From Gammaproteobacteria bacterium (GTDB lineage: Bacteria; Pseudomonadota; Gammaproteobacteria; Pseudomonadales; Pseudohongiellaceae): a DNA stretch of 64,000 bases. Both the position numbers and the translations under genes were made by a program. Shown here piece by piece: positions 9,133 to 64,000 of the stretch. The stretch lies in assembly GCA_024639905.1 (NCBI GenBank), contig JAHEGE010000001.1:434001-498000 (forward strand). Reading direction: 5' to 3'. Position 1 is the stretch's first letter. Each line of letters opens with the position of its first letter. Under the pieces are notes generated by a model. The model saw nothing but the letters and a program-made list of their open reading frames with translations, was not told where the DNA came from and did no database searches.

Positions 9133-9143
9133 AAGCAGTATCG

Positions 9144-9166: not shown

Positions 9167-9208
9167 TGCATTCTTCTACTCACACATTCTCATTTTTAGG
9201 AAAAACCT

Positions 9209-10246
9209 ATGCTTTCGTATCAAACAACCACACCGGGCGGCCCACTGAGTGCCGTCGAATCTGACACGCCACAGCCTCAAGGTAGCGAAGTCCTCGTTAA
9301 GATGATTGCCTGCGGCGTCTGTCATTCTGATATTCACATGCACGATGGCGTCTTCGATCTCGGTCATGGCAAACAGCTCGAGGTTGGCCGCGAGGGCATG
9401 GTCTTAGGCCACGAAATTTTCGGCGAAGTCATCGCTATTGGGCCCGATGTAACCGACGCCGCTATCGGCGATCGCCGCGTTGTTTATCCCTGGATCGGAT
9501 GCGGCGAATGCGCGGCATGTCTGCGAGGCGACGAAAACTTGTGTACGCCTGGTCGCGCGCTCGGCATTGCTGCCAAGGGCGGCTTCGCCGATGTCGTGAT
9601 GGTGCCGCATTCGCGTTACCTGTTCGATAAAGGGGATGTAGATGATTCTCTGGCTGCGACCTATGCTTGTTCAGGTCTCACCGCCTTCAGCGCGTTGAAC
9701 AAAGTGGGTGAGCTTGTACAGGGAGATGAAGTCGTGATCATCGGCGCCGGCGGCGTTGGCATGATGGCTATTCAGATCGCCCTCGGTAAGGGTCTCGACC
9801 CTATCGTCGTCGACATCGACGAGGCAAAACTTGCCGCGGCGCGAGAGATAGGCGTAACACGCACGTACAACTCGGGCGACCCGCAGTCTGGCAAGGATTT
9901 GCGTAAGTCCACAGGCGGCGCCTATGCCGTATTGGATTTCGTGGGCGCCGAAGCCTCGGTAAATTACGGCTTAGGTTGCCTGCGTAAGGGCGGCATGATT
10001 ATCGTCGTTGGTCTTTATGGCGGTTCGCTGAATATCCCGCTGCCGTTCATTCCGATGAATGCGCGCATCATCCAAGGCAGCTACGTGGGTACGCTGCAGG
10101 ACATGGCCGAGCTCATGGAGCTCGTCCGCGCCGGTAAGATCGCACCGATAGAAATCCACGAGCGACCACTCGCCGAGGCCGAAGCGGCGCTTGCCGACTT
10201 GAAGGCGGGCAAGGTGCGCGGTCGTCAGGTCTTAGTTAACAAATAG
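9209..10246 (+). CDS. Zinc-dependent alcohol dehydrogenase (MDR family)
   Basis: 345-residue medium-chain dehydrogenase. Seen: catalytic zinc Cys in ACGVCHSDIHMHDG (near residue 37), GHEIFGEV with the second zinc ligand, a full structural-zinc lobe C-x2-C-x2-C-x7-C (GCGECAACLRGDENLC), and the NAD(P) fold GAGGVGMMAIQIAL. An AGGAAAA site precedes the ATG. Lying between beta-oxidation genes, it may oxidise medium or long alcohols towards aldehyde for entry into that pathway, which fits with the CYP153 hydroxylase elsewhere in the window. That substrate is inferred. Confidence 0.88.
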   Translation: MLSYQTTTPGGPLSAVESDTPQPQGSEVLVKMIACGVCHSDIHMHDGVFDLGHGKQLEVGREGMVLGHEIFGEVIAIGPDVTDAAIGDRRVVYPWIGCGECAACLRGDENLCTPGRALGIAAKGGFADVVMVPHSRYLFDKGDVDDSLAATYACSGLTAFSALNKVGELVQGDEVVIIGAGGVGMMAIQIALGKGLDPIVVDIDEAKLAAAREIGVTRTYNSGDPQSGKDLRKSTGGAYAVLDFVGAEASVNYGLGCLRKGGMIIVVGLYGGSLNIPLPFIPMNARIIQGSYVGTLQDMAELMELVRAGKIAPIEIHERPLAEAEAALADLKAGKVRGRQVLVNK

Positions 10247-10262
10247 AGTAGGAGTAAATGCT

Positions 10263-11501
10263 GTGCAGGCGATAGCCCAGTTAGAAGATTTTAGAGAATC
10301 CACCCGCGCGTGGTTAGAAGAAAATTGTCCGCCCTCTATGCGGACTCCGATGGTTGATGCCGAGGTCGTTTGGGGCGGTCGCAATGCAACCTTCGCTAAT
10401 CCCGAGAGCAAAATCTGGCTCGAGCGCATGGCAGAAAAAGGATGGACGACGCCTACGTGGCCAACCGAATACGGCGGTGGTGGGCTAAATAAAGAGGAGT
10501 CGATCATCCTAGCGCAGGAGATGGCGAGAATTAATGCGCGTCAGCCACTAAATAGTTTCGGTATCAGCATGCTCGGTCCAGTACTTCTTGAGTCTGGAAC
10601 CCACGAGCAGAAGATGGAACATATTCCTAAGATCGTGCGTGGTGAGATTCGCTGGTGTCAAGGCTACTCAGAACCGGGTAGTGGTTCTGACCTAGCAAGC
10701 CTTAATACGAAGGCTATTCCAGACGGCGATGATTACGTGATCAATGGCTCGAAGGTGTGGACCTCCTATGCCGATAAGGCGGACTGGATTTTTTGCCTTG
10801 TACGGACCGACAGCGAGGTGCCAAAGCACGCAGGCATCAGCTTCATCTTGTTCGATATGGCGACGCCCGGCGTGACGACGAAGCCGATCCAGCTTATCAG
10901 CGGTATGTCGCCTTTCTGTGAAACATTCTTCGATGACGTCCGCGCGAAGGCGTCGAACCTTGTCGGCGGACTTAACAATGGCTGGGCGATCGCCAAACGC
11001 CTGCTGCAGCACGAGCGCACGATGATTTCAGGCTTTGGCCTAACTGGCAGTCAAGCGGACAAAGGTGGCACGACGTCGACCATGGACAGCGTCGAACGCG
11101 CAGCGATGCACTACCGTGGCGATACTGACAAGATTTCTGATCCCGCGCTGCGTGATCAAATCGCTCAGTTTAAAATTGATAGCGCGGCCTTTGCTATGAC
11201 CTCGCAGCGTTCTGTCGAAGAGTCGAAACAGGGTCAGGGTCCAAATGCGACTTCGTCGATGCTCAAGAACTACGGCTGTGAATTGAATAAGCGCCGCTAT
11301 GAACTGTTATTGAGCGCGCTCGGCAGTCAGGCACTCGGCTGGGAAGGCGAGGGCTTCGAGGGCGATGAGCTCGCAGTCACTCGCGAGTGGTTACGTTCGA
11401 AGGCGAACTCCATCGAAGGCGGCACCTCCGAGGTGCAGCTCAATGTGATCGCGAAGCGCGTGCTGGGTCTGCCGGACATGTTAAGCCTCGTGCAGAAGTA
11501 G
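10263..11501 (+). CDS. Acyl-CoA dehydrogenase, first of a tandem pair
   Basis: 412-residue acyl-CoA dehydrogenase. The N-terminal helical domain (residues 1-120) is followed by the beta-domain with GYSEPGSGSDLASL and VWTSYADKADWIFCLVRT, and the C-terminal helical domain ends in SIEGGTSEVQLNVIAKRVLG. The start is GTG: AGGAG lies 8 nt upstream, and the nearby ATG at 10258 is out of frame. It is 61 bp upstream of a second acyl-CoA dehydrogenase. In actinobacterial sterol and long-chain pathways such pairs form alpha2beta2 enzymes in which only one subunit is fully catalytic; the same is likely here. Confidence 0.9.
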   Translation: MQAIAQLEDFRESTRAWLEENCPPSMRTPMVDAEVVWGGRNATFANPESKIWLERMAEKGWTTPTWPTEYGGGGLNKEESIILAQEMARINARQPLNSFGISMLGPVLLESGTHEQKMEHIPKIVRGEIRWCQGYSEPGSGSDLASLNTKAIPDGDDYVINGSKVWTSYADKADWIFCLVRTDSEVPKHAGISFILFDMATPGVTTKPIQLISGMSPFCETFFDDVRAKASNLVGGLNNGWAIAKRLLQHERTMISGFGLTGSQADKGGTTSTMDSVERAAMHYRGDTDKISDPALRDQIAQFKIDSAAFAMTSQRSVEESKQGQGPNATSSMLKNYGCELNKRRYELLLSALGSQALGWEGEGFEGDELAVTREWLRSKANSIEGGTSEVQLNVIAKRVLGLPDMLSLVQK

Positions 11502-23642: not shown

Positions 23643-24338
23643 CTAGACCTCTAGCCATTCGGCGCGCACGTCTTGAGCCTCCATGAGGCTCGCAGGCGTG
23701 CCTTCGTAAACGATCTTGCCATGGCCCATCACGTAGAGACGCTGCGAAATCTTTAAGGCTATCGACAGTTTTTGCTCAACCAAAAGAATCGAGACGCCGC
23801 GGCTGGCAATTTCTTGCAGCAGGTCGCCGATCTGTTCAACCACCTTGGGTGCAAGCCCCTCAGTAGGCTCGTCGATCATAATTAATTCGGGGTCACCCAT
23901 AAGCGTGCGGCACATGCATAGCATCTGCTGTTCGCCGCCACTTAACACACCACCTGCGACTTCTGCACGCGCCGCGAGATTAGGAAACATCTGAAACATA
24001 TCGTCGATGCTCCAGCGGCTACTTTCGTGTTTGCCCTTAAGTCCGAGCACCAGGTTTTGACGGACGGTGAGTGTCGGAAAGATATCGCGGTTCTCTGGTA
24101 CGCAACCAAGCCCGCGCTGTGCTATTTCAAATGCCTTGAGGCCTGCGATCTCCTCGCCTTTGAATTCAATTGAGCCATGTGGAGTGACTTCACCCATTAG
24201 GGTTTTCACGGTAGTGGAGCGCCCCACACCATTACGGCCGAGGAGGCTGACAATTTCACCCGCACCCACTTCGAAGTTGACGCCTTGCAGGATATGGCTT
24301 TTGTCGTAATAAGCGTGCAGGTCTTTCACCTTAAGCAT
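23643..24338 (-). CDS. livF: Branched-chain amino-acid-type ABC transporter ATPase, LivF
   Basis: 231-residue ATPase subunit of a HAAT-type importer. Signature motif LSGGEQQML, Walker B LIMIDEPTEGLAP and the switch His segment are normal. The Walker A segment reads GRNGVGRSTT: the usual Lys is Arg, a substitution I believe occurs in some LivF proteins. The ATG at 24338 has GAGGTG 7 nt upstream and overlaps the livG stop by 8 nt (ATGCTTAA), so translation is coupled. It is the last gene of the five-gene unit. The longer frame to 24425 runs through livG and is not used. Confidence 0.9.
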   Translation of the reverse strand: MLKVKDLHAYYDKSHILQGVNFEVGAGEIVSLLGRNGVGRSTTVKTLMGEVTPHGSIEFKGEEIAGLKAFEIAQRGLGCVPENRDIFPTLTVRQNLVLGLKGKHESSRWSIDDMFQMFPNLAARAEVAGGVLSGGEQQMLCMCRTLMGDPELIMIDEPTEGLAPKVVEQIGDLLQEIASRGVSILLVEQKLSIALKISQRLYVMGHGKIVYEGTPASLMEAQDVRAEWLEV

Positions 24339-25083
24339 CGTTAGGCACCTCGCCGAGGTAGGCTTCTTGCACGCGCGTGTTGCTGCGAATGTGTTCGGGT
24401 TTGTCGGTGGCGATGATTTCTCCATAGACTAGCACACTGATGCGGTCGGCAATATCGAAGACGATGTTCATGTCGTGCTCCACCATGATGAGGGTCTTGC
24501 CCTCGGTAATGCGGCGGATAAGCGCAACCGCATTTTCAGCCTCGCTATTACTCATGCCTGCAACCGGCTCGTCGAGCATGATAAGTTCTGCGCCACTGGC
24601 GACGGCAATCCCTAGCTCGAGTGCGCGCTGCTGCGCATAGGCGAGTTCGCCGCTGGGTAGGTCTGCTTTGTCCGCAAGACCGATCTGCTCCAACATGTCG
24701 TGCGCGCGGGCATTGAGAGCTGTCTGCTTGCCAAGGAGTCGCCAAAACGAATAGCGGTAGCCTTCGGACCAGAGTAGCGCGCAGCGAATATTCTCGAACA
24801 CACTCATGCGATGGAAAATATTAGTGACTTGAAAGCTGCGCGCCAATCCGCGACGGGCGATCTCATAGGGGGGCAAATTTTGAATGGCTTCGCCCTTAAA
24901 ATCGATTGCGCCGCTGCTCACGTTATAGCGTCCAGAAATGAGATGAAACAGCGTCGACTTTCCGGCGCCATTCGGTCCGATGATCGCATGCTTCTCACCT
25001 GGTTCGATGGCGAGTGACACGTCGCGAATAATTTCGGTGGAGCCGAAGCGCTTACATACCGAATCAAGGGTCAGGATACTCAT
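24331..25083 (-). CDS. livG: Branched-chain amino-acid-type ABC transporter ATPase, LivG
   Basis: 250-residue ATPase with normal Walker A (GPNGAGKST), Walker B (LIMLDEPVAGMS) and switch His (VEHDMNIVFDIAD). The signature region is ELAYAQQRALEL, the LivG variant of LSYGQQR. It pairs with LivF as the ATPase heterodimer. Its ATG overlaps the stop of livM by 4 nt (ATGA). Confidence 0.92.
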   Translation of the reverse strand: MSILTLDSVCKRFGSTEIIRDVSLAIEPGEKHAIIGPNGAGKSTLFHLISGRYNVSSGAIDFKGEAIQNLPPYEIARRGLARSFQVTNIFHRMSVFENIRCALLWSEGYRYSFWRLLGKQTALNARAHDMLEQIGLADKADLPSGELAYAQQRALELGIAVASGAELIMLDEPVAGMSNSEAENAVALIRRITEGKTLIMVEHDMNIVFDIADRISVLVYGEIIATDKPEHIRSNTRVQEAYLGEVPNDA

Positions 25084-26303
25084 GATTTCGCCTCCTGCGC
25101 CGCTGCGTTAGCGTGCTCCCATGCCGCCGCGAGACGCGGGCGCGCAAGTTTGACGCCACCGGCACCGATCGCCGCCAGCATGGCGAGCACGAACCAACTA
25201 AAGGCAGAGTCGTTCGCCAGGTCCATGCTAAGGAAGTGGAGCAGTTCGTCGGCATGGCTGAGTTCTACCATGCCGATAAACGCTGTGAGGAATAGGCCAG
25301 CAGGTAAGGCTGTGAGGCAATAGGGCAGCACGAGCGAACCCATCTTGCCGTTATTCCATGCCGCGCGATGCATCATGATAAAGCCGGCGAAGCCTTTGGG
25401 CAGAAACATGACGGTGAGCAAGAACAGGATGCCGAGATACAACATCCACATTTCAGAATAATTGCTGAGTAGCGAATTCATCAGCGTAAGGATTACCGCG
25501 CCGATGATGGGGCCGATAAAGAAACCGAGGCCACCGATATAGGCCATGAGCAACACGCGACCCGAGGTGAGCGCGTTGAGGTTTTCCTCGGTGATGAATT
25601 CGTAGTTAATCGCAAACAGGCCGCCGGCTACGCCTGCAAACATACCCGCTGCGCAGAAGGTGATAAAACGAACGCGGCGCGTACTGTAGCCGATAAATTC
25701 TGCTCGCTCTGGATTGTCACGTACCGCGTTAGCCATGCGCCCAGCCGGAGTTTGGGTGAATAGATACATGAGTAAGGTGGCGACGAAAAGCCAGAACGCA
25801 CCGAGGTAGTAGACCTCGGAATCTTGCAGGAATTCGATGCCGAAGAACGCCGGGCCATAGGTTCTGTCGCCGCTCACGCCGGCCTCGCCTCCGAAGAAAT
25901 CGACGAAGATAAGCGATGAGGCAACGATTAACTCGCCGATGCCGAGCGAGATCATGGCGAACACAGTGCCGGCCTTGCGTGTGGAGAAGCTGCCAATAAA
26001 CAACGCAGCCAGCAGGCCGAAGACGCCGCCCACGAGGGGGATTAGGGTGATCGAGAATACCAGTACTTCGTCGGCGATAAGATTAAGCGCGTGCACACTC
26101 ATAAAGCCGCCGAGGCCGAAGTATACCGCGTGGCCGAATGACAGCATCCCGCCTTGTCCAAGCATCATGTTGTAGCTAAGCGCGAAGAGTATCCAAATGG
26201 TCATCTGATTAAGGATGGAGATACCAAGCACAGAGCTGAATAAAGAGGGCAGTAATACTAGGACAAGCGCGTAGGCCGCCCATAGGAGTAAGTGTTTCTT
26301 CAT
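25080..26303 (-). CDS. livM: Branched-chain amino-acid-type ABC permease, LivM, with C-terminal extension
   Basis: 407-residue inner-membrane permease. The core has the LivM pattern (YNMMLGQGGMLSFGHAVYFGLGGF near residue 60, PAGRMANAVRDNPERAEFIGY, LTSGRVLLMAYIGGLGFFIGPIIGA). From about residue 310 there is an added tail of roughly 95 residues with two more hydrophobic segments (LPYCLTALPAGLFLTAFIGMV and FSWFVLAMLAAIGAGG) and an Ala-rich end, beyond the usual LivM length of about 300-330. It lies 6 nt downstream of livH. Confidence 0.9.
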   Translation of the reverse strand: MKKHLLLWAAYALVLVLLPSLFSSVLGISILNQMTIWILFALSYNMMLGQGGMLSFGHAVYFGLGGFMSVHALNLIADEVLVFSITLIPLVGGVFGLLAALFIGSFSTRKAGTVFAMISLGIGELIVASSLIFVDFFGGEAGVSGDRTYGPAFFGIEFLQDSEVYYLGAFWLFVATLLMYLFTQTPAGRMANAVRDNPERAEFIGYSTRRVRFITFCAAGMFAGVAGGLFAINYEFITEENLNALTSGRVLLMAYIGGLGFFIGPIIGAVILTLMNSLLSNYSEMWMLYLGILFLLTVMFLPKGFAGFIMMHRAAWNNGKMGSLVLPYCLTALPAGLFLTAFIGMVELSHADELLHFLSMDLANDSAFSWFVLAMLAAIGAGGVKLARPRLAAAWEHANAAAQEAKS

Positions 26304-26309
26304 TGGTGC

Positions 26310-27260
26310 TTATTCTTCCCGGTTGCCCATGAGGCCTGTCGGTTTAAAGATGAGTACTAGTATCAGCAGTAAGTAAGGCAGTACTGGCGCGATCTGTGGC
26401 AGCTTCAGCGTCCAAAGGTCGTTTAACGGATGGCTTCGCTCGAAGCTCACGCCTAGCCATTCTAGAAGTTCGGGCATGCCCGCGTCGGCGGCGATCGCGT
26501 AGGACTGCAAGAGGCCCACTAAAAGTGACGCGATGAAGGCGCCGGGTAGGCTGCCAAGCCCGCCGATGACAACGATGATGTAGACGATACTGCCGAGTAC
26601 GACTGCCATGCCAGGGAATGTGGTGAGTACGGGTCCAGCGATGACGCCCGCAACGCCGGCCAGAGCCGTGCCCGCACCAAACACGCACATGAAGATGAAC
26701 GGCACATTATGACCGAGATTCGCGACAGTATGGGGGTGACTAATAGACGCTTGAATGATGATGCCGACGCGGCTGCGGGTAAGCACGACATAAAGCGCCG
26801 CGAAGATGCCGAGCGAGATTGCGATCATGAATCCTCTGTAGGCTGAGAATTCCTGCCCGAACAGAGTAAAGAGCGCGAAGTCTAAAAGCTCTGGCGTCTG
26901 GTAATTCTTCGTATCGCGGCCCCAAAAGAACTGCACGAGTTCTTCGATGAGAAACGCAAGACCAAAGGTAAATATGAGCTCAGCAACATGGCCGTAAGAG
27001 TGCACCCGGCGCAGGCCGTAACGCTCGACCCCCGCGCCCAAGGCGCCAACGAGAAGCGGTGCGATAAGCAGTCCGCCCCAGAAGCCGATATAACCGCTAA
27101 CGGTATAGGCGATATAGGCCCCCAGCATATAGAAGCTGGCGTGGGCAAAGTTCAGCACGCCCATCATGCTGAAGATGAGCGTGAGGCCGCTGGCGAGCAT
27201 AAACAACAGTAAGCCGGTCACTAACCCATTGAGGGTCGCGAAAATAAAGACTTCATTCAT
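26310..27260 (-). CDS. livH: Branched-chain amino-acid-type ABC permease, LivH
   Basis: 316-residue permease with the LivH signature (LNGLVTGLLLFMLASGLTLIF, NFAHASFYMLGAYIAY, VIIGGLGSLPGAFIASLLVGL) and about eight membrane helices. It partners LivM to form the channel. The insert LDFALFTLFGQEF and the ERSHPLNDLW loop near the C-terminus are larger than in E. coli LivH. It starts 3 nt after the binding-protein gene's stop. Confidence 0.92.
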   Translation of the reverse strand: MNEVFIFATLNGLVTGLLLFMLASGLTLIFSMMGVLNFAHASFYMLGAYIAYTVSGYIGFWGGLLIAPLLVGALGAGVERYGLRRVHSYGHVAELIFTFGLAFLIEELVQFFWGRDTKNYQTPELLDFALFTLFGQEFSAYRGFMIAISLGIFAALYVVLTRSRVGIIIQASISHPHTVANLGHNVPFIFMCVFGAGTALAGVAGVIAGPVLTTFPGMAVVLGSIVYIIVVIGGLGSLPGAFIASLLVGLLQSYAIAADAGMPELLEWLGVSFERSHPLNDLWTLKLPQIAPVLPYLLLILVLIFKPTGLMGNREE

Positions 27261-27263
27261 GGC

Positions 27264-28529
27264 TTAGCGTCGCGGTCTGCGCATGCGGCAGCTGTGCTCG
27301 AGTGCGGTGTCGTCGGCTGTGACCTCGTATTCGGTGAGCAGCCCGTAACCCGAATTATCGGCATCGAACTCAATGCCTTCGTCCGTTTGCTTCGAAATAT
27401 AGAGAGGCTGAATGAGCTGGTGGTCGTCTGGGCGCATCCACAGCTCGTCGCCACCGATGTTGGTGAAGCGCATGTCCTCCAGCGCTACTGCAACGTCATA
27501 CGGGTCAGTGCTCTGTGATTTCTCCATCGCAGTGACAACCATCATCAAGGCGTTCACGAGTCGCGACTGGGTGACATCGAAATTCGGGTGAGCGTCTTTG
27601 TAGGTGTGATTAAAATCGCGTCGCGTCTTGCTAGCAATCGGGTTTGCACTATCGGTGTGGATCAGGCGAATGCGGTCTTTGCCATCTTCGCCCAGTGTCG
27701 CCGTGATGCCGTCGTATGCGGCATAGAACGTATAAATCGGCGCGTCCATACCAGAGTCGATAATCGATCGTGCGAGGGATACCATGTCGGCGCCGAAGTT
27801 GCCGGTGATAACTGCGTCTGCGCCCGAAGACACTATTTTCGTTACGTAAGGTGTGAAGTCTTTTACCGTGCCAATGGGGTGGAATTCGTTGCCGACGATT
27901 TCGATGTCGGGCCGCTTCTCATTAAGCAGGCGAATGGTGTTGTCGGCGACGACTTGGCCAAAGGAATAATCTTGACCGATGATGTAAACGCTCTTGATGT
28001 CTTCGTTCATGGCGATGAAATCAGTGAGCACCTCGAGTTTCATAACCGCGTGGGCGTCGAAGCGGAAATGCCAAAAGCTGCACTCTTCGTTGGTCAGGAT
28101 CGGGTCTACTGCTGCGTAGTTTATTTGTAAGACTTCTTGGCCTGGGTTGCGGCGATTGTGGCGCGTAATCGTCTGATTTAGCGTGTTTGCAACCGCTGAG
28201 CTGTTGCCCTGAAAGAGGATGCGCAGCTCCTCGCTCACCGCGCGGCGGAATTGCAGCTGCGTTTCTGTTGGGCTCTGCTTGTTGTCGAGCGGCACGATCT
28301 CAATCATACGCCCGCCCAAGATTCCGCCTTTGGAGTTGTACAGGTAGTCAACGGCGAATTCGAGCAGGTTGAGCCCGCTGGTGCCAACGGACGCAAACGT
28401 GCCCGAAAGCGGGTCCATAAAGCCAAGACGAACAGGGTCTTGTGCGTTAGCGACAGGGGTGAGCGCGGCACTGGCAAGGAGGCTGGCGGTGAGCAAGGGG
28501 CGAAGCGATCGGCTAAAAGAGTGCAGCAT
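27264..28529 (-). CDS. ABC transporter periplasmic binding protein, HAAT/Leu-Ile-Val type
   Basis: 421-residue periplasmic protein with a signal peptide (LTASLLASAALTPVANA). The mature part begins QDPVRLGFMDPLSGTFASVG, the family's usual opening strand and ligand loop. Later blocks such as SVYIIGQDYSFGQVVADN and ISGGADAVITGNFGADMV-like strands match type I binding proteins. It lies first in the liv unit, so its ligand sets the specificity, which may be amino acids, amides, urea or short acids. The second ATG (28529) is used: AGGA lies 8 nt upstream, whereas the ATG at 28538 has no site. Confidence 0.9.
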   Translation of the reverse strand: MLHSFSRSLRPLLTASLLASAALTPVANAQDPVRLGFMDPLSGTFASVGTSGLNLLEFAVDYLYNSKGGILGGRMIEIVPLDNKQSPTETQLQFRRAVSEELRILFQGNSSAVANTLNQTITRHNRRNPGQEVLQINYAAVDPILTNEECSFWHFRFDAHAVMKLEVLTDFIAMNEDIKSVYIIGQDYSFGQVVADNTIRLLNEKRPDIEIVGNEFHPIGTVKDFTPYVTKIVSSGADAVITGNFGADMVSLARSIIDSGMDAPIYTFYAAYDGITATLGEDGKDRIRLIHTDSANPIASKTRRDFNHTYKDAHPNFDVTQSRLVNALMMVVTAMEKSQSTDPYDVAVALEDMRFTNIGGDELWMRPDDHQLIQPLYISKQTDEGIEFDADNSGYGLLTEYEVTADDTALEHSCRMRRPRR

Positions 28530-28734
28530 AAAGGGCATCCTAGAGGCGCTTATCGAGAAGCGTATTTAGACTAATTATTGCGAATGACCTTATCCTACAG
28601 CGCCCCGGTCTGCAACAAGCCTCGCTGACGATTTCTGTGCAGAGCAGGACTCCTCAGCAGGCGAAATGTCGCGAGCCCGGCGCAAGGTTGATAGACTCCT
28701 GCTCTCGATAACAAAACAGTCATTCAGGCGCGCT

Positions 28735-29136
28735 ATGCGACAGATTCTAGAAGCAGAGGTTGATTTTTCGGCGATCCGTGCCAGCGGCCCAGGTGGGCAG
28801 AATGTCAACAAGGTATCGACAGCGGTTCAACTGCGTTTCGATTTCATGCGCGCGCGCATTACTCATGCTCAGCGGGAACAAATTAAGCTTATGCGCGATG
28901 CACGTATTACGAGCGGCGGTGAGATTGTGATAAAGGCGCAGCGCTTTCGCAGCCAAGAAAAGAACAAGCAGGATGCGTTAGACCGGCTGAATGGGCTGCT
29001 CGCCAAAGCAACCGCAGTGCAGGCAACGCGTATCGCCACCAAGCCTACGCGAGGGGCAAAGGAAAGGCGACTAGAGGGTAAGCGCAACGTGGCGGGGAAA
29101 AAATCCGGACGCGGCACAGTGAGGGAGTTTGATTAG
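28735..29136 (+). CDS. arfB: Alternative ribosome-rescue factor ArfB (peptidyl-tRNA hydrolase, GGQ)
   Basis: 133 residues. The release-factor domain has the catalytic SGPGGQNVNKVSTAVQLRFD (GGQ near residue 21) and a basic C-terminal tail (TRIATKPTRGAKERRLEGKR) which in ArfB enters the mRNA channel of stalled ribosomes. Hydrolyses peptidyl-tRNA on ribosomes that lack a stop codon. The start at 28735 gives the family's normal N-terminus; the longer frame from 28666 adds 23 unrelated residues. It stands alone, divergent from the liv operon, and is followed by a strong terminator. Confidence 0.9.
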   Translation: MRQILEAEVDFSAIRASGPGGQNVNKVSTAVQLRFDFMRARITHAQREQIKLMRDARITSGGEIVIKAQRFRSQEKNKQDALDRLNGLLAKATAVQATRIATKPTRGAKERRLEGKRNVAGKKSGRGTVREFD

Positions 29137-29157
29137 GGGTTTGGGTTAGAGGCTTCG

Positions 29158-29194
29158 AAAAAAAGCAGAGTGCGCAACGCGACTCTGCTTTTTT
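29158..29194 (+). terminator. Rho-independent terminator, usable in both directions
   Basis: GCAGAGT and ACTCTGC form a 7-bp stem, extended by A-T pairs between seven A's before it and six T's after it. It lies 21 bp after the arfB stop. The A-run on one side and the T-run on the other make it bidirectional, so it could also stop transcripts that come through the thiolase from the right. Confidence 0.85.
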
Positions 29195-29250
29195 GTGTGT
29201 AAGCCACCGGGGTTTCGGCTTTATTTGGCTTCCTTGCCGTTAAAACGGTA

Positions 29251-29286
29251 GGAAAAATGCATCGATGAAAGACCTGACCCCGGGTT
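29251..29286 (-). repeat. 36-bp dispersed repeat, copy 1
   Basis: Read on the minus strand, this 36-mer matches 56065-56100 on the plus strand at 35 of 36 positions (one A/G difference). It begins about 11 nt after the thiolase stop codon, in the direction of transcription. It contains the palindromes CCCGGG-like CCCGGGG and ATCGAT, then a T-run that could end transcription. Confidence 0.85.
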
Positions 29287-29296
29287 TGCTGGAGGT

Positions 29297-30481
29297 TTAG
29301 AATACTTCGAAGAGGCCTGCTGCGCCCATGCCGCCGCCTACGCACATGGTGCAGACAACGTATTTCGCGCCGCGGCGCTTGCCTTCGATGAGTGCGTGCC
29401 CAACCATGCGCGCGCCGCTCATACCGTAAGGGTGGCCGATAGAGATCGCGCCGCCGTTTACGTTTAATAGCTCATCGGGGATGCCGAGCTGGTCGCGGCA
29501 ATAGATCACCTGCACGGCGAACGCTTCGTTAAGTTCCCACAAACCAATGTCGTCCATCTTGAGACCATTGCGCTCTAACAGCTTAGGAATGGCGAAGACT
29601 GGGCCGATGCCCATTTCTTCAGGGGCCAAACCAGCGACCGCCATGCCGCGATAGGCGCCGAGTGGGCTGAGACCGCGCTGTTCAGCGAGTTTGCTGTCCA
29701 TAATGACAGACGCCGATGCGCCATCAGAGAGCTGGCTTGCGTTGCCCGCGGTGATCACGCCGCCTTCCACAACGGGTCGGAGACCGACGAGACCTTCGAG
29801 TGTCGTCGTTGGACGATTGCCTTCGTCTTTCTCGAGCAGTACGTCATGGACGCTCTGCTGCTTGGTTTCCTTGTCCATGAACAACATTTTGGAGGCGAGT
29901 GGGACGATCTCATCGTCGAACTTACCTGCTGCTTGCGCCGCTGCTGTGCGCTGCTGGCTCTGCAAGGAGTATTCATCTTGTGCGTCGCGCGAGATGTTGT
30001 AGCGCTTGGCGACGATCTCAGCCGTTTCCAGCATTGAGATATAGGCGTGCTCAGACTTAGAGACTACGTTTGGGTCTACCGCGCGATAGCCATTACGGTG
30101 CTCATTCTGCACGAGGCTGATCGACTCGAGTCCGCCACCGATTACAATAGGCATGCCGTCGGAGATAACTTGTTTCGCGGCAGTCGCGATCGCCATCATA
30201 CCCGAAGCGCACTGACGATCCATGCTCATGCCAGAGACTGTGTTCGGCAGACCAGCCGCCACGCCCGCTGTGCGGCCTATGTTAAAACCCGAAGAACCCT
30301 GCTGCATCGCGCAGCCCATGACGACATCGTCAACTTCGGCAGGGTCGATACCCGCGCGTTGCACCGCAGCGGCGATGACGTGGCCGCCTAGCGTTGGGGC
30401 GTCTGTGTCGTTAAATGCGCCGCGGTAGGCCTTGCCAATTGGGGTTCGTGCCGTGGATACGATTACTGCTTCTCTTGTCAT
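29297..30481 (-). CDS. Acetyl-CoA C-acetyltransferase / thiolase
   Basis: 394-residue thiolase. The nucleophilic Cys lies in [13 protein letters not shown] (near residue 91), with [24 protein letters not shown] (catalytic His) and [16 protein letters not shown] (second Cys). Shape and length fit biosynthetic or degradative thiolases acting on short acyl-CoA. GGGAG lies 11 nt before the ATG, and a possible -10 (TATAGT) lies in the 57-bp gap to the selenoprotein gene. It is therefore either the last gene of the selenoprotein operon or has its own promoter. Confidence 0.92.
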
Positions 30482-30538
30482 GCTGGTGTTGCTCCCTTTT
30501 CAATAAAATCTGTCTTAATCACTATACTTAATAAATCT

Positions 30539-31060
30539 TTAGCGCGGTTCGCTCACGAGCAGGAGAATCTTTTCGATGGCATCGCGTGCCAATAGCTTCA
30601 TCTCTTCATCGCTCCGATCCTGAATAGGATGCGGCACGAACAGGCTGGCTGGCGTAATGCCCAGCGAGCGCCCCTGCGCGGCTGCTGCGTCGACGAATTC
30701 TGTCGAGGCGATAAAGGCCGCGGGTAGTCCTCTGCTTTCTAGGCTCATGATGTCATGCAAACTGCACGAGGTACATGAGCCTCAGTCGGCGAGTCCTTCG
30801 ATTACTGCGTCGCATTCGATGCTAATGCGCTGCGTGAGCTCCACCGGCGCGGTGCGGGCAAAGGTCGGCTTGGCGTAGCGCTTTACCTTCGCGCCTATCG
30901 CCAGCAGCTGCGCTTCAACCTCATCGAGAAACTCCTTACCTCTTGGTTTGGAGATATCGAGCAGACCTATGGTCGCACCGGCTAGCGAGGCTAGGCGGGG
31001 AAGAATCTGCCGCTCTACCGGGCTTAGCTCGGCAGTAGGGTCTAGCAGGGTGGTGTGCAT
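30539..31060 (-). CDS. UGSC-family selenoprotein with in-frame UGA (Sec93)
   Basis: One gene of 173 residues when the in-frame UGA at 30784-30782 is read as selenocysteine. Upstream reading ends EGLAD, then U-G-S-C-T-S-C-S-L continues in the same frame to a true stop at 30539. The Sec-Gly-Ser-Cys motif defines the UGSC family, known mainly from marine bacteria. Cys96 would form a selenenylsulfide with Sec93, with Cys99 (TSC) as a possible resolving residue. Residues before it (ATIGLLDISKPRGKEFLDEVEAQL) and after it (GLPAAFIASTEFVDAAAAQ) are as expected of a small Rossmann-like domain. ATG at 31060 follows AAGGAG by 7 nt. A SECIS-like hairpin, SelB and tRNA-Sec support the reading. A gene finder would split it or call a pseudogene. 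Confidence 0.93.
30742..30781 (-). promoter_or_regulatory. SECIS element directly after the Sec UGA
   Basis: The 40 nt after the UGA fold into two stems: an outer 8-bp stem (GGCTCATG with CATGAGCC, no mismatch), an internal loop (4 and 3 nt), and an inner 7-bp stem closed by the loop GTT. Bacterial SelB binds a short hairpin immediately 3' of the UGA with G and U in the apical loop, and that is what is seen. The hairpin also codes for the following residues. Confidence 0.85.
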
Positions 31061-31112
31061 GGACTCACTCCTTACTTGGTTCGTTGTTAAAAAGCACGCT
31101 GCCGTGCTGTGG

Positions 31113-32546
31113 CTAGTAGACCGCTTGTGACACGAGCTGGCTGCCACGCTCACCCGAGGCTACCCAACCGCCGATGATTGCGGAGAACATCCCGGCGGTG
31201 CCGCCGAGCGTGACAATATGCAGTCCATCGTCGCGAAATTTGTTCAGTATCTTGTCTTTAAGCTTCTCCGGCATGCCCTCGGCGATGCCATTGGCTCCGC
31301 GCATGATTTCCGTACCTGGGGTCATGAGCGCGTTATAGAGTGCAGCGCGCAGGTCTGCCTTGCTCCAGCCGCCTTCGCGGAATACGCGTCTGTGCTCGGG
31401 GGAGACTAGCAGAATCGCGTCAGCCATACCAAACAGCTTGGTGTGGGCTACGGCGCGCAGGCTAGCCGCGAGGCTGAGTGCGAGGGATTCGGGCGTGCGA
31501 GATTGCTGATCGACGATGCCTTGCAGGCCTTCGCCAGCGAACAGACTGACCACCGATTCGCCGCGGGCGAAGCCGCGATCCTCCGCCAGCGTGGGCCAGT
31601 CGGCATCACTTTCGTCTTCGGCGAAGCAATAGCTGTACTTGCCGGGGTTGCCCATGGTCGCGCGATCTATACCACCGGGCACGCCGCCGCCCACGTTTCG
31701 GATCAGCAACTGCAGGGCGCGTCCGATGGTGGCGTTGGCGCGGTTGCCTTGGCCAAGCGCGTTCATCCCCGAGTTCATACCGATACGCTTTGCGACCTCG
31801 CCGTTGACGATCACCACAGGTGAGGAGAAGTAAGTCGTGCACAGGAGCCCGTGCATGCAGAATTTGTCTTGTAACGCGGCTTCGACAGACGCGAGTACCA
31901 CGGGGAAGTATTCGGGCTTGCAACCGGCGAGTACGGCGTTAATCGCCACCTTCTCTACGCTGCACGGCACATTGTCTGGTGGCACGTTGCCAATAATCTC
32001 GGCGGCATCTCGCTGTGCCCCGCGTAGCATGCGCAGCACGCGCAGCGCAGTGGGTGGCACGACTGGCAGGCCGTCGCTCCAGCCGCGGTCGTAGCAGGCC
32101 TCGAGCTCGTCTTCTGAGGCTGCAAGTTCTACGTGGCGCGCGTGTAGCTGGCCCTCGCCAAAGCGGAGTGCGAGGACATCGTCCATGCCGGGGTCTTGAG
32201 TCTTGGAGCCACAGCCGGGCTTGAAAGGAATAAGCGGTTCGCCGAGAAAGGGCAGCTGCGTTAATACCCGCCACTGCCCTCGGTCCCAGCCCTCTGCGCG
32301 TTCGGCGTCGTCGCGAATCAGGGTCGGGACCACCTCGATGTGCGCTCGGTAGGAATGCTCCAGCTGTGTATCATCGATGACGTCACTGGCGACAGGGAAG
32401 TCTGGGTCGTCCTGAGAGTAGATCTGTAGCGTGACGCCTGCGGCGCGCAGTTCATCGATCACCGGCACGATGAGCTGGCAGGTGGGGCAATCGCGCTTTA
32501 AGAAAAGGGAATAAGAGGGCGTTGATTTTGCGCTTGAGTCTGTCAC
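31113..32546 (-). CDS. Thioredoxin-like domain fused to an uncharacterised UGSC-associated domain
   Basis: 477 residues, no signal peptide. Residues 1-100 look like a thioredoxin fold: the strand YSLFLKRDCPTCQLIV with a CPTC redox motif (Cys20, Cys23) and HIEVVPTLI, where VVPT is the cis-Pro loop. Residues about 160-477 are a separate conserved domain (YDRGWSDGLPVVPPTALRVL, EKVAINAVLAGCKPEYFPVVL, GQGNRANATIGRALQLL, HIVTLGGTAGMFSAIIGGW) of unknown activity. GTG at 32546 has GGAG 8 nt upstream. It lies directly upstream of the UGSC selenoprotein gene, with a 52-bp gap, so the Trx-like part may reduce the selenoprotein. That role is inferred. Confidence 0.75.
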   Translation of the reverse strand: MTDSSAKSTPSYSLFLKRDCPTCQLIVPVIDELRAAGVTLQIYSQDDPDFPVASDVIDDTQLEHSYRAHIEVVPTLIRDDAERAEGWDRGQWRVLTQLPFLGEPLIPFKPGCGSKTQDPGMDDVLALRFGEGQLHARHVELAASEDELEACYDRGWSDGLPVVPPTALRVLRMLRGAQRDAAEIIGNVPPDNVPCSVEKVAINAVLAGCKPEYFPVVLASVEAALQDKFCMHGLLCTTYFSSPVVIVNGEVAKRIGMNSGMNALGQGNRANATIGRALQLLIRNVGGGVPGGIDRATMGNPGKYSYCFAEDESDADWPTLAEDRGFARGESVVSLFAGEGLQGIVDQQSRTPESLALSLAASLRAVAHTKLFGMADAILLVSPEHRRVFREGGWSKADLRAALYNALMTPGTEIMRGANGIAEGMPEKLKDKILNKFRDDGLHIVTLGGTAGMFSAIIGGWVASGERGSQLVSQAVY

Positions 32547-32566
32547 CGGGCGCTCCGTTGGATGGG

Positions 32567-32878
32567 TTAATAGACGAAGCCGAGGGTGCAGATGCCGACT
32601 AAGATATTGGTAATCATGAACACTGAGGAGGTTCGCGACATCACCTTCCACATCTGCGGCCCTTTGTAGCCGGCTCTGATGCCGACGACCAGCGCGAAGG
32701 TATAGATAAGCTGAGCTGCGACTATCAGAAGGAAATACAGCCAGCGATCGTTGTCGACCGCCCAGCTGCCACCGAAGAAGAAGGCGGTAGCGCCGAGGAC
32801 ATACAGCAGCCAATAGCTCACGGCGAGTCGAAGGTCGCCGGATTTAAACGCAGAAGTGGAATCGTAGGTGTCTGACAT
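32567..32878 (-). CDS. Small membrane protein of unknown function
   Basis: 103 residues with about three hydrophobic helices (LAVSYWLLYVLGATAFFFGG, WLYFLLIVAAQLIYTFALVVGI, SVFMITNILVGICTLGFVY). I recognise no family. AGGCGG precedes the ATG at 32878. It lies 20 bp upstream of the thioredoxin-like gene on the same strand and so probably opens the selenoprotein operon. It may anchor the system at the membrane, but nothing in the sequence proves that. Confidence 0.7.
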   Translation of the reverse strand: MSDTYDSTSAFKSGDLRLAVSYWLLYVLGATAFFFGGSWAVDNDRWLYFLLIVAAQLIYTFALVVGIRAGYKGPQMWKVMSRTSSVFMITNILVGICTLGFVY

Positions 32879-33088
32879 GGAGCCGCCTAGGCTAAGTTGA
32901 ACCGACTCTGGCTGAGTCGGTTTGCTCGATCCCCTGAGTCTACCCCAGTCTCGTTGGGGCGACAATTTGTTGCATCAGTGTGCCGCTCCACCATGAAGCC
33001 TTTGGCAAAGAGCGCAGTGAGTTGATTCGACTGAGGGCTAGGACGGTGGTACGGTTTTGAGGGTATTGATTCATTCAGGTTGGACGCC

Positions 33089-33532
33089 ATGACTATCGAA
33101 GCCATTTTTACGTTTTGTAATATCCTGGTCTTGCCGGGCTGGGCACTGCTTATCTTGCTGCCGCGCTGGAAATGGACGCTGGGCCTTATTTCGGCGGGGC
33201 TCATTCCCTTCGTGCTGGCACTTGTCTATGCGTGGCTTTTCGCGGGTCGGCTCAGCCTCATGCCGGAAGGAGGTGGTTTCGGCTCGCTCCCTGCGCTGAT
33301 GGTGCTTTTTACCGACCCTGCGTTGGTCACGGTGGGCTGGATTCACTATCTCGCCTTTGATTTGTTCGTGGGCTGCTGGGAAGTTAACGATTCGCGCAAG
33401 CAGGGAATCAACCACTGGCTGGTGATTCCGTGCTTGCTCCTCACATTCTTGCTCGGGCCAATTGGGCTGGCACTGTACTTTGTGCTGCGCGCGGTGAAAA
33501 CGGGTAACGCGCTGATCTACCCGTCCACTTAG
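33089..33532 (+). CDS. ABA4-like (DUF4281) membrane protein
   Basis: 147 residues with four membrane helices, resembling the bacterial relatives of plant ABA4, a neoxanthin-synthesis factor. Seen: FTFCNILVLPGWALLILLPRW, LMVLFTDPALVTVGWIHYLAFDLFVGCWEVND (with the conserved His and Asp), and LLTFLLGPIGLALYF. In bacteria the role is unknown. ATG at 33089 is preferred to TTG at 33080. The gene is monocistronic and divergent from the selenoprotein operon. Confidence 0.8.
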   Translation: MTIEAIFTFCNILVLPGWALLILLPRWKWTLGLISAGLIPFVLALVYAWLFAGRLSLMPEGGGFGSLPALMVLFTDPALVTVGWIHYLAFDLFVGCWEVNDSRKQGINHWLVIPCLLLTFLLGPIGLALYFVLRAVKTGNALIYPST

Positions 33533-47881: not shown

Positions 47882-47950
47882 TTAAGGCGGCAAGCCAAGG
47901 CGGCAAACTAGAGTCTCGAACTCACGAGTCGTTATGCTAAGCTCTCTCGC

Positions 47951-48046
47951 GGAAGAGTATCATTCCCGGTGGGGTGCCCGGACTTCAACTCCGGTGAAGC
48001 GTGTTAAAGACAGGCTTGGTGGGTTCGACTCCTGCCTCTTCCGCCA
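47951..48046 (+). tRNA. selC: tRNA-Sec (selenocysteine, anticodon UCA)
   Basis: 96 nt with encoded CCA. The anticodon arm is CCGGA-CTTCAAC-TCCGG with TCA at 47985-47987. The D-arm can form six pairs with a 4-nt loop (CATTCC and GGGGTG), and the variable arm is long (AAGC...GCTT plus TGT/ACA), both hallmarks of tRNA-Sec. The T-loop reads TTCGACT. It starts GGAAGAG like E. coli selC. The acceptor plus T-stem adds up to 12 pairs by my count, one fewer than the 13 of E. coli. It decodes the UGA of the selenoprotein at 30539 together with SelB. Confidence 0.95.
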
Positions 48047-60215: not shown

Positions 60216-62225
60216 CTACCACGGCCTGCGCACGATGCGCAGGTTGTCTTTGCGCAGCGTAAACCCGACTGCATCGAAGTGTTCTAGCACTTCGATGCAA
60301 AGGTTGCGGCCCATCTGAGTCGCATCGCGAAATTCGATCACACTGAATCCCTCCGCCTCGCTTCGCCCCATGAGTTGCTCGGCAATCTGCGCTAGTGTCG
60401 TCAAGGTTGCCGGCAAGTAGTAGCGATTGTCTGCGACGCGAACCGCGGCGCCTTCGCGTGCAACATGCTGCAATATTCTTTCCACCGCCTTCAACGGTAT
60501 TCCTGTGGCGTCTACGATCTCGCGCGTGCGCGGGGGAGTAGTGGCGCCTTTACGAAGAAGTGGTGCGATAACCGCGTCGAACTCCTCTCGCTCCTTACTA
60601 ATCTGCGCCTTATGCGAGGGCAGCGCATAGAGTGTGCCGCCTCGCCTCAGCACGCCATCGATTACGAGGCCGTCGAGTAACGCGTTGAGCAGCTTGGGGT
60701 TTGGCGCGAGCTGGCGGCTGAATCGTCTCAACACCTCTCGTTCATCGCAGCCTGTGGCGCTCGGCATTGCCGCATGGAAGGAGGCGATCGCGGCCTTGGT
60801 TTCGTGAGTGAGTGCGTTGAAGTGTGCTCGAGAAAAGAGCAGGGGCCAGCGCTGGTTTTTCGTTGCCAATTCTAGCGGTGCCGTGTCGGTCGCGCGCAGT
60901 GCAACGAGCAAGGCGTCCACGGCGCTGTCGGCGAGATTGCGGGCATTCGCGAATTGCGTAACAGAGACTCCGAACCGGCTGAGTCCGATTAGCCCCTCTA
61001 GTGCATCCGCTGTCGGTGCGCAGTGTGCGTTGAGTAGCGCAAGCCGTTCATCGCTTGCGCGCGCTCTGCGTGGAACGGCCGTATCGATTATCCTGCCGCC
61101 GCCGAGCGTTTGCCTAGCGGACGGGTCACGCAGAATAAACCGGTCTCCCCAATAACAACTCAGCGGTGCGTCGAGGCTCAACTGGTAGAGGTGTTCCCGT
61201 GGTTGAGCAGGGCTTGGTGTCGCGGCCGAAGCGGCAGTGCTGCGAGCGCCTGCATTCTGCAAAAGGCGCAAGCGGGCGAGTCTATGCGATGCGCCGATAT
61301 GAAGATGGTAGTCGACGCCGGGTTTAATCGGCGGAGCATCGCCTCTGCTCAATGCAAGCAGTCGCAACTCGGCATCCATGCGCTGCACAGGGGCTGCCTC
61401 GACCCCCAACCAGTCGCCGCGTTCAACCGCCTCGTGGCTTAAGCTCACGTTAAGCGCTGCGCGCTGTCCAGCGAGTGCGTATGTCCGCTCATCGTGATCG
61501 ACGCGAATACCCCTAACCTTTGCCTCACTGCCACTGGAATGCAGATAGTCTTCGCCGCTTGCGAACGTGCCCGCGACGACGGTGCCTGTGACCAGTGTGC
61601 CTATGCCCTTGGCGCTGAAAGCGCGGTCGATAAGAAAGCGAGGTCGCTGCTGCATGGCGGCTTGCGCTGAATTTTGGTCGTCGACCCAAGACTCGAGATG
61701 TGTCGCCAATTCGGCAATTCCGTCCCCGCTAAGGTTATCCACCTCTATGATTTTCGCGTCGGCGAGGCTGGTGTCAGCAAGCAGAGCGAGCAGCTCGGCA
61801 CGCACGGCCGCTAGGGCTTCGGCGTCGACTCGATCGATTTTGGTGAGAGCAATGACGCCGCGCGAGAGCCCCAGTAGATCGAGTATGGCGAGGTGTTCGC
61901 GCGTCTGGGGCATGATGCCGTCATCGGCCGCCACGACCAGCAGCGCGGCGCCAACAGCGCTGACGCCGGCCAGCATATTATTAATGAAATCACTGTGGCC
62001 GGGTACATCGACGAATCCGAGCGTGGCGCGAGAGCGATCGGCGAGCGTGAAGTGTCGATAGGCGAAACCGGAGTTAATCGTCAGCCCCCGCGCTTTTTCC
62101 TCGGCGAGGGTGTCAGTGTCGGTGCCGGTGAGGTGTCGCACGAGTGAGGTCTTCCCGTGGTCAACATGCCCAGCGGTGGCGACGGCGAGAAAGCGGGTAT
62201 GCGGAAGAGTATTAGCGGAATTCAT
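60216..62225 (-). CDS. selB: Selenocysteine-specific elongation factor SelB
   Basis: 669 residues. The GTPase domain has G1 [16 protein letters not shown] (near residue 16), G3 DVPGHSD and G4 TKID; domains II-III follow ([24 protein letters not shown]), and the C-terminal winged-helix region (from about residue 400) binds the [36 protein letters not shown] and the final [29 protein letters not shown]. SelB brings Sec-tRNA to the ribosome at UGA. ATG at 62225 overlaps the lactate permease stop by 4 nt (ATGA); the 95 residues before it are permease DNA out of frame. Convergent with the P450. Confidence 0.93.
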
Positions 62226-64000
62226 CCTTGCAAGGGTAGCACTCGAGCACGGGCAATGGCGACGACGAAACTGGCCACGATGAGCGCGGCGAGTGCAAAG
62301 CCAATGTTCAAGCCCCCGCCGGCGAGGCTCACGATGCCGAGGCCCAGCGCGCCTGTGAATAACGCGTAATAGGCGAAGGCTAGCAGGGTTTTGCGGATGA
62401 CCGCGCCTTCTTTGCCCACGAGCCCAACGACCGCCGATGCTGCGACCACGTTGTGTACGCAGATGATATTGCCGGCGGCGCCACCTACCGCTTGGAGTGC
62501 CACAATCCACAGGGGATCGAAGCCTACGCGTTCTCCTACGCCGAATTGAAACAGCGCGAACATCATATTACTCACGGTGTTGCTACCCGCGACGAAGGCG
62601 CCTAACCCGCCAATGAGAGGCGAGAACAAGGGCCACGCGGCTCCAGCGAGTTCGGCGACACCCTCGGCGAGTGCGATGGGCATCTGTTCGTAGCCTGCGC
62701 CACCGCCGCTCGAATTAATGAACACCTGCACCATTGGCACGGTGAAGATGAGCGCCATGGAGGCAGGAACCAGCGTCTTAACCGATTCGGCTGCGGCTAG
62801 CCTAAAGTGTGCTAACGGCAATCTATGAAGGCCAATCGTCGCTATCGCGGCGGCGATAAATATGCTGCCAGGAGACCATAGCGGTTGGAAGGACGCCGAG
62901 ATCGAGCTGCCGAGTATTTGCGGCCAGGCCCAAGTAATAAACGGATCGCTGCTGCGCAGCAGGGATTCTAAGTCGAGCGCGCGCAGGCGCGTCATCACCA
63001 AGAGCGCGGCGATGAGAAGATAGGGCGACCAGGCGCGCAGAAGGCCCATAGTCGGGGAGTCGTCTTGATCGGCGGGTGCGGGGGTCGTGGCGCCGGTCCA
63101 TTCCTTTTCCCACTGCGCAGGTTCTGTGAAACGCCAAGGCTTAGCGGCGTCTGGCATGAGGAAGCCGCGCTTCGCCGCCGGGACAACGATAGCGAGGCCG
63201 ATAATGCCGCCAAACATCGAGGGAAATTCTGGGCCGAGGAATGTGGCTACGAGCAGATAGGGTAGCGTCATCGCAAAGGCCGCGAAGAGTGCGAAGCGCC
63301 ATACTGCAAGTCCCTCTGCGAAGCTGCGATTGACGCCGAAGAAGCGCGTCATCGTAGCCACGACTAGAAGCGGAATAAAAGTGCCGGCGATCGCATGCAG
63401 GAGCGCGACACGGGCACCGATATCGGCGATGAACAGACTCCAATCGCTAAATCCCTGCGTGAGGGCAAAGTCGGCCATGCCTGGATCCGCAGAGAGGCCG
63501 CTGCTAATGCCAACTAGCATCGGCGTGCCCATCGCGCCGAAAGAGACCGGGGTGCTCTGAATAATCATGCCCGCGACGACCGCGGCCATGGCTGGAAAGC
63601 CTAGGCCGACCATAAGCGGCACGGCGACTGCAGCTGGCGTGCCGAAACCGGCTGAACCTTCGATAAACGAGCCGAATAGCCAAGCAATGATGATGACTTG
63701 AATGCGCCGGTCGGGGGTGATGTCTGCAAAGCCCGCGCGAATTGCGCGCATCGCACCGCTTTGTTGCAGGGTGTTGAGCAGCAGTATGGCACCGAAGATG
63801 ATGTAAATGAGAGTGCCGGCGACGATGAGGCCATTGATGCTAGCGGCGAGCACTTGTACCCCGGGGACCTGCCAAACGCCAAGCGTTAAGCCGGCGACCA
63901 CGAGATAGGCGACAGGCATCGCACGGCTTGCCGGCCAGCGGAGACCGACGAGTAGCGCGGCGACGACGAGAATCGGCGCGAAGGCGAGTAGGGCGAGAAT
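62222..64000 (-). CDS. lldP: L-lactate permease, N-terminus cut by window edge
   Basis: 592 residues visible, of the LctP family of 12-14-helix lactate/glycolate permeases. Seen: [59 protein letters not shown] (family signature), [20 protein letters not shown]-like block, and EGAVIRKTL near the end. The frame stays open from 63919 to 64000 with permease-like residues ([19 protein letters not shown]), so the start lies beyond the window. Its last codon overlaps selB, so the two are probably co-transcribed. Confidence 0.9.

Follow-up and report, generated by a model that had tools for sequence, protein, structure and literature searches.

A UGSC-family selenoprotein gene and its constant partner point to a candidate two-part, thioredoxin-linked enzyme

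Two adjacent reading frames on the minus strand of a marine gammaproteobacterial contig lie in the same phase and are separated by a single TGA. Is this codon the end of a gene or a site of selenocysteine (Sec) insertion, and, if Sec is inserted, what kind of protein results? We addressed both questions in the whole stretch of DNA analysed, 64,000 nucleotides in length (hereafter the window), and in related genomes and plasmids.

Reading frame, family and selenocysteine codon

The original prediction had placed one in-frame TGA at 30784-30782 between the two frames, with the junction reading E-G-L-A-D-U-G-S-C-T-S-C and a product of 173 residues if TGA encodes Sec. Position, frame and junction proved exact, and the product length was borne out. 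The gene (30539..31060, minus strand) runs from an ATG start, with AAGGAG, a Shine-Dalgarno-like sequence, read 5' of it, through TGA at codon 93 (30782..30784, minus strand; U93) to a TAA stop. Its product matches the Pfam family PF24696 'UGSC' over residues 5-167 (E 3.1e-40, 138.5 bits, gathering cut-off 25) and NCBIfam NF041046 over residues 28-167 (141.9 bits, cut-off 125), whereas a sequence search of the PDB returned no credible match. Both family models cover both sides of the TGA, and homologues, whose presence past the UGA was the check attached to the original prediction, continue there in the same frame.

The TGA is kept at the same codon in 80/80 relatives, the best 80 of 122 found on genome contigs; 79 were recognized by script and one (L017), with an N close after the TGA, was read by eye. 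Among 58 related genomes, our own counted, 36 carry UGSC, and the 57 family match rows comprise 55 with one TGA and two fragments starting past the motif. Across 398 genomes of the phylum, UGSC occurred in five, again including our own, with six rows, five of them with TGA and the sole TGA-less one (G197) reading C-G-S-C. Homologues with Cys in place of Sec had also been anticipated: in a ten-member alignment, Cys occupies the Sec column in five distant members (Natrinema, Variovorax SRS16, Roseovarius, Arthrobacter and Halorientalis), two fused proteins, from Sporomusa termitida and Vibrio europaeus, have Met there, and the three remaining members are TGA forms. Sec or Cys is followed by G-S-C, with homologues aligned on both sides; Neorhizobium galegae has C-S-T-C in place of C-G-S-C. 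Given the Met in the Sporomusa and Vibrio fusions, at least one branch manages with no selenol. The Arthrobacter UGSC protein (L103:9001-9816) ends in a tail that contains A-C-S-D-C-V-M-P and looks similar to NifU, and one member of the ten-member set matches NifU_proper at E 0.021.

A SECIS-like stem-loop begins at the TGA (30741..30784, minus strand), with a 9-bp lower stem, an internal loop, a 7-bp upper stem and a 3-nt apical loop, GUU, in which G comes first. This layout agrees with the bacterial SECIS definition given in the available part of PMC1088965, a stem-loop directly 3' of UGA with a small apical loop containing G. Fold energy and codon usage both mark the element. The 44 bases from the TGA have a minimum free energy of -22.6 kcal/mol, whereas 100 codon-preserving shuffles averaged -11.3 (sd 3.2) and 0/100 were as low. 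Across 80 genes (an N-containing gene was dropped), shuffle z-scores averaged -2.38 (range -4.96 to -0.33), with 5/100 shuffles as low as the real hairpin for each of two genes (L077 and L081); the hairpin signal is clear for many genes, not for each. Codons +5 to +10 show frozen synonymous sites across 81 genes (the window's and the best 80 of 122 relatives), with TCG at +5 in 81, TGC at +6 in 80, CAT at +9 in 81 and GAC at +10 in 80. Excess codon identity over expectation averages 0.446 at +1 to +11, compared with 0.056 (sd 0.097, 80 codons) outside +1 to +14. An Rfam scan of the SECIS stretch gave chance-level matches only, and a promoter and terminator scan of 29000-33200 returned nothing above chance (two promoter-like and two terminator-like sites, where shuffled sequence averaged 1.4 and 3.5).

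The genome holds SelA, SelB, tRNA-Sec and SelD, the full set expected of a bacterium that makes selenoproteins. The selenocysteine tRNA (selC, anticodon TCA) lies at 47950..48045 on the plus strand (Rfam RF01852, 63.3 bits, gathering cut-off 47), and the elongation factor SelB at 60216..62510 on the minus strand (Pfam Beta-barrel_SelB, 64.7 bits, cut-off 27; SelB-wing_3, 44.9, cut-off 23.2), its open reading frame as listed being probably overlong, with homology from about residue 107. SelD (C9:408820-409722) and SelA (C9:504940-506334) are encoded on the same contig as UGSC, so the UGSC gene and all four components fall within ~98 kb of a 691-kb contig. In one Burkholderiales genome (L081), selA and selB directly follow UGSC. 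The selD match in our genome (L090, G000:C9:408820-409722) sits within a 788-residue open frame, far above the 311-position SelD model, and is perhaps a fusion like the Ndh-SelD proteins mentioned in PMC2398784, which was available in part.

If the TGA were a true stop, the locus would hold a pseudogene or two separate short genes, and the gene table of one relative, from Acidovorax, does read it so. This reading is hard to reconcile with a TGA kept in all of the best 80 of 122 relatives and replaced by Cys in others, with frozen synonymous sites over a stem-loop, and with complete Sec machinery; we rejected it on the TGA conservation, the Cys homologues and the frozen sites, and give it a negligible probability. 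Sequence comparison indicates instead, with near certainty, that the gene encodes a genuine UGSC-family selenoprotein, and the family match above cut-offs, the Sec/Cys alignment, the SECIS-like element and the Sec machinery uphold the family named in the original prediction. The gene is a new member of an already known, functionally uncharacterized family, in print since at least 2008 (PMC2398784, seen in part). In an ocean survey, UGSC made up 8.2% of selenoprotein genes and was among the most abundant families (PMC9402790, in the part available); we found no function for it in the portions of published accounts of the family open to us.

A partner gene beside UGSC

Only 52 nt upstream of UGSC lies a gene (31113..32546, minus strand) for a protein of 477 amino acids, for which we propose a GTG start. 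It is made up of an N-terminal domain, thioredoxin-like as modelled, with a CPTC motif (approximately residues 1-125; 32172..32546, minus strand) and a core domain (approximately residues 150-477; 31116..32099, minus strand), the core being common to archaea, actinobacteria and fused proteins. The protein had no Pfam match and no PDB sequence match at E up to 5, and no NCBIfam match at E up to 0.001. One Cys of the core is invariant in 17/17 aligned sequences; this 17-row profile omits, among plasmid loci fetched with UGSC, one that was unannotated (L116) and one that was interrupted (L119). No solved structure matches the core closely in Foldseek. Kinship of the partner with fumarate hydratases was considered and rejected: Leishmania fumarate hydratases headed the Foldseek rows for the whole protein at a TM-score of only about 0.2.

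The association of the two genes is constant in the loci that we compared. A partner relative lies just upstream of UGSC in 80/80 loci (best 80 of 122), and in a collection of 72,556 plasmid records the 16 with UGSC all have the partner adjoining it, in either order. Eight further plasmid records hold the partner with no UGSC match at threshold, two of them being the Sporomusa and Vibrio europaeus proteins in which a UGSC-like domain is fused to the partner. The genomes with the partner are the same as those with UGSC, 36/58 related genomes and 5/398 genomes of the phylum (our own counted in both) and no others, and some carry extra partner copies that have no UGSC of their own (for example, three partner genes versus two UGSC genes in G193). 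UGSC-partner pairs are spread over proteobacteria, actinobacteria and haloarchaea, hosts that we take to be largely aerobes.

Fusions join the two proteins outright. UGSC and partner form one protein, with Cys, in Variovorax boronicumulans, and UGSC-like domain and partner are fused in Sporomusa termitida and Vibrio europaeus. On the IncP conjugative plasmid p2-T1 of Acidovorax sp. T1 (L102, about 8640-10280), they share one frame across an in-frame TGA. The original prediction had warned that automatic annotation would split such genes, and this plasmid is a case in point: in its PLSDB gene table, which is incomplete (the original record may say more), a short hypothetical protein ends at the same TGA and nothing covers the partner part. 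A gene table can thus still cut this family at the UGA. Ocean metagenomes described in 2008 included UGSC fused to a domain called 'Unknown_1' (PMC2398784, in the part available), which may be the same partner. Taken together, adjacency, co-occurrence and fusions make it very probable that UGSC is one subunit of a two-part enzyme and the adjacent partner the other.

Some loci depart from the simple pair. In three (L127, L128 and L129) there is an additional UGSC-partner pair; it too has TGA, and its partner has no thioredoxin-like domain. This pair is near threonine ammonia-lyase, crotonase-family and amino-acid transporter genes in L127 and near a crotonase-looking frame in L128, with no such neighbour identified in L129. 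On two haloarchaeal plasmids (L106 and L117), UGSC sits between two partner copies, one on each side.

Thioredoxin links, predicted folds and neighbouring genes

The AlphaFold2 model of the partner has a mean pLDDT of 84.3, and its N-terminal domain matches thioredoxins in Foldseek with probabilities mostly of 0.99-1.00 and E of about 0.004-0.03. Cys20, Thr22 and Cys23 of its CxTC motif are invariant in 47/47 aligned sequences (47 of the 81 available were used). Many partners outside the window's group are shorter and have no such domain. TrxB-like genes were found in 7/13 plasmid loci with UGSC (13 of the 16 records) and 2/7 other genome loci, and in 0/80 loci of the window's group (best 80 of 122). 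The TrxB cut-off is passed by two loci (L100 and L133) and missed by two (L115 and L118), the others being unscored; two carry a trxB annotation (L101 and L103), and the weak cases are an interrupted gene (L119), one only 29% identical (L131) and one 5-7 kb away (L116). In Arthrobacter, trxB and trxA adjoin partner and UGSC. Given the domain in the partner here and the TrxB neighbours elsewhere, thioredoxin may be supplied in cis where neighbouring genes supply none, although one locus (L133) has both. In the window's lineage, the partner's own thioredoxin-like domain probably passes electrons to the selenol.

UGSC itself is predicted to fold differently. Its AlphaFold2 model (pLDDT 90.2, pTM 0.84; 51 sequences of the 81 available) follows the order E H E H E H E H E H, strands alternating with helices, and U93 opens the helix that follows the third strand. 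Comparison with PDB structures gave mixed rows with TM-scores of about 0.4-0.56, several flavodoxins or flavodoxin-type domains being among the best; top scores of about 0.5 mean that no solved structure is close, and no thioredoxin appeared among the best 50 rows. A thioredoxin-like fold has been suggested for UGSC (PMC2398784, in the part available). The flavodoxin-like (beta-alpha)5 model, with no thioredoxin among those matches, does not support that suggestion, and we set it aside.

UGSC bears a weak resemblance to the Sec-bearing subunits of glycine and D-proline reductases. The NCBIfam glycine reductase protein B model TIGR01917 weakly matches UGSC residues 79-166, at the Sec region (E 3.8e-4; 19.5 bits versus a cut-off of 602.2), TIGR01918 gives 15.1 bits versus 65.45, and the window-protein matches included neither TIGR04483 at E up to 0.1 nor PF07355 at E up to 0.001. 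Five of ten UGSC members match protein B at E up to 0.1, a count that is not of independent cases because three of the ten are close kin (the window's, L078 and L081). PrdB-like selenoproteins (L-V-P-L-U-P-V-C) are present in 6/48 related genomes (L107-L112), one copy (L107) scoring 84.7 bits for PrdB, below the cut-off of 300; a search of the window's own genome (E up to 0.001) returned none. Aligned to these by hhalign, the UGSC profile places Sec on Sec with E 3.6e-4, at a probability of only 37%, against E of 0.066, 0.3 and 0.43 in control comparisons. The GrdB motif U-x-x-C-x-x-C (PMC13188914, in the part available) is present in 51/51 close UGSC members, the third Cys being C99, which is kept in only 2/5 distant unfused members. 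A search of 200 genomes, run with no positive control, yielded no relative of PF09338. We regard the link as suggestive, a lead and not membership.

The genes around UGSC are of a catabolic kind. An acetyl-CoA C-acyltransferase (thiolase; 29297..30481, minus strand) lies 57 nt downstream, followed by a branched-chain-amino-acid/urea-type ABC transporter (23643..28538, minus strand), a possible uptake system with partial conservation. It comprises a binding protein (27264-28538), permeases (26310-27260 and 25080-26303) and ATPases (24331-25083 and 23643-24425), all on the minus strand, the permeases and ATPases being named by the look of their sequences. Thiolase relatives occur downstream of UGSC in 62/80 loci and the binding protein in 40/80 (best 80 of 122 in each case), many loci being too short to tell. 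Also near the operon, the plus-strand gene at 28666-29136 encodes an RF-1-domain protein with a GGQ motif, presumably an ArfB-type ribosome rescue factor.

Elsewhere the neighbours vary from clade to clade. An SDR dehydrogenase is found in L066 and L078 and a CaiB/BaiF-type CoA-transferase in L077, and other loci hold transporters of the tripartite tricarboxylate or TRAP type, CoA-transferases, a CoA ester lyase, LysR regulators and dehydratases, two further records being unannotated in this region. A C4-dicarboxylate transporter, TrxB and a distant BhcC relative mark L133. In L127, the neighbours comprise a threonine ammonia-lyase, an amino-acid transporter and a protein of the crotonase family, several of these names resting on scores below equivalog cut-offs. 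Below cut-offs as well, an XcbD-like lyase and a ComA-like synthase (sulfolactate/coenzyme M synthesis) stand beside UGSC pairs (L099:7434-8777 and L103:5672-6460), a possible hint at sulfonate substrates. No single substrate follows from the neighbours, and we rejected the attempt to name one, since the leads diverge: Natrinema and Arthrobacter have genes of the sulfolactate type, L133 has C4-dicarboxylate transport, L127 a threonine ammonia-lyase together with an amino-acid transporter, and the window a thiolase and a branched-chain-type ABC transporter. The common theme, drawn with no matched control of unrelated plasmid genes, is the import and CoA-linked degradation of small acids rather than defence against stress.

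A candidate enzyme and its relation to known systems

The original prediction had called the product a thiol/selenol redox protein. As a broad description this remains plausible; it is too general, and the evidence favours half of a two-protein enzyme over a free-standing thiol oxidoreductase. The best overall explanation, which we hold tentatively and at somewhat less than an even chance, is a Sec-bearing two-part enzyme fed by thioredoxin, with chemistry resembling that of glycine and D-proline reductases. The substrate bound by the partner would be a small organic acid, an amino acid or the CoA ester of such an acid; the U93 selenolate, at the tip of the flavodoxin-like domain, would displace a leaving group from carbon; Cys96 of U-x-x-C would resolve the adduct to a selenenylsulfide; the partner's thioredoxin-like domain would reduce this and restore the selenol; and the product would enter CoA metabolism via the downstream thiolase. 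Precedents for the steps exist in sources available in part. Glycine reductase receives electrons from thioredoxin, and a carboxymethyl selenoether is thought to form (PMC10298544); for PrdB, an attack by Sec on the alpha carbon of pyruvoyl-bound proline has been proposed (PMC3091704); and a GrdB-like pair of Cloacibacillus is proposed to cleave the C-F bond of fluoroacetate (PMC10838667). By analogy, chemistry of the glycine/D-proline reductase type on a small organic or amino acid or CoA ester, with the product passing to CoA metabolism through thiolase, is conceivable but on balance doubtful; our estimate was lowered because most distant members lack the third Cys and because D-proline reductase is reported to work without thioredoxin.

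Might UGSC be a general antioxidant or a thiol-disulfide oxidoreductase, working like a peroxidase or by reducing disulfides? Its UxxC motif would fit, printed reviews assuming as much for most uncharacterized UxxC selenoproteins, as would the thioredoxin links of the partner and neighbours. GrdB peroxidase activity appears in the title of a reference cited by PMC3091704 (itself seen in part), so even a Grd-like protein could show such activity. The predicted (beta-alpha)5 flavodoxin-like fold is not that of thioredoxin, however, the constant partner has a core matching no known redox family, and the neighbours are catabolic, with transporters and CoA enzymes; we judge this role unlikely. The partner's invariant Cys and conserved core, in all 17 aligned sequences, could alternatively mean that catalysis resides in the partner alone and that UGSC, much like GrdA or a thioredoxin, only carries electrons or groups for it; the partner core is retained in the Sporomusa and Vibrio fusions, which have Met for Sec/Cys. 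All other members read, C-S-T-C in Neorhizobium galegae included, nevertheless have Sec or Cys at this position, and for the comparably placed Sec of PrdB an attack on the carbon of the substrate has been proposed (PMC3091704, in the part available). A mere carrier role is accordingly rather improbable in our estimation, below the antioxidant.

Returning to the two-part enzyme, we offer a bolder formulation that should be read as speculative. UGSC and partner might constitute an unrecognized class of thioredoxin-driven reductases that use selenolate or thiolate chemistry to break carbon-heteroatom bonds in small organic acids; such a class would be a remote analogue, perhaps a homologue, of the anaerobic glycine and D-proline reductases in which a new substrate-binding subunit replaces the pyruvoyl proprotein. 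If true, Grd/Prd-like chemistry would extend beyond anaerobic amino-acid fermenters. The constant partner, the thioredoxin source and the catabolic operons turn 'some redox protein' into a testable enzyme, and it is the partner and the enzyme it implies that deserve follow-up.

How does the pair compare with known systems? From the UGSC family (NF041046/PF24696) the gene differs in nothing: both cut-offs are passed, the U/C-G-S-C motif is there, and the TGA carries its SECIS-like element. Neither the constant partner with its thioredoxin-like domain nor the co-occurrence of the two genes was found in those parts of the family literature that were available. Thioredoxins and thioredoxin-fold selenoproteins are resembled by the partner's N-terminal domain, as modelled, whereas UGSC itself is predicted to be flavodoxin-like. 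The Cloacibacillus fluoroacetate operon (PMC10838667, in the part available) serves as precedent only, suggesting that such chemistry is not limited to amino acids; it belongs to an anaerobe, consists of different genes and is likened here without sequence comparison. Closest in possible chemistry are D-proline reductase PrdB and protein B of the glycine, betaine and sarcosine reductases (TIGR04483, TIGR01917, TIGR01918 and PF07355). UGSC scores far below their cut-offs and its partner is unrelated to them by sequence; no pyruvoyl-forming PF09338 proprotein, the partner expected of such reductases, turned up in the 200-genome search with no positive control, and the UGSC partner matches no Pfam family; most distant UGSC members lack the third Cys of the GrdB motif; and D-proline reductase, according to the available part of PMC10298544, is not driven by thioredoxin. 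Shared with protein B are a Sec in U-x-x-C and a weak profile similarity in register, and shared with glycine reductase would be the thioredoxin system as electron source (PMC10298544 and PMC3091704, both available in part).
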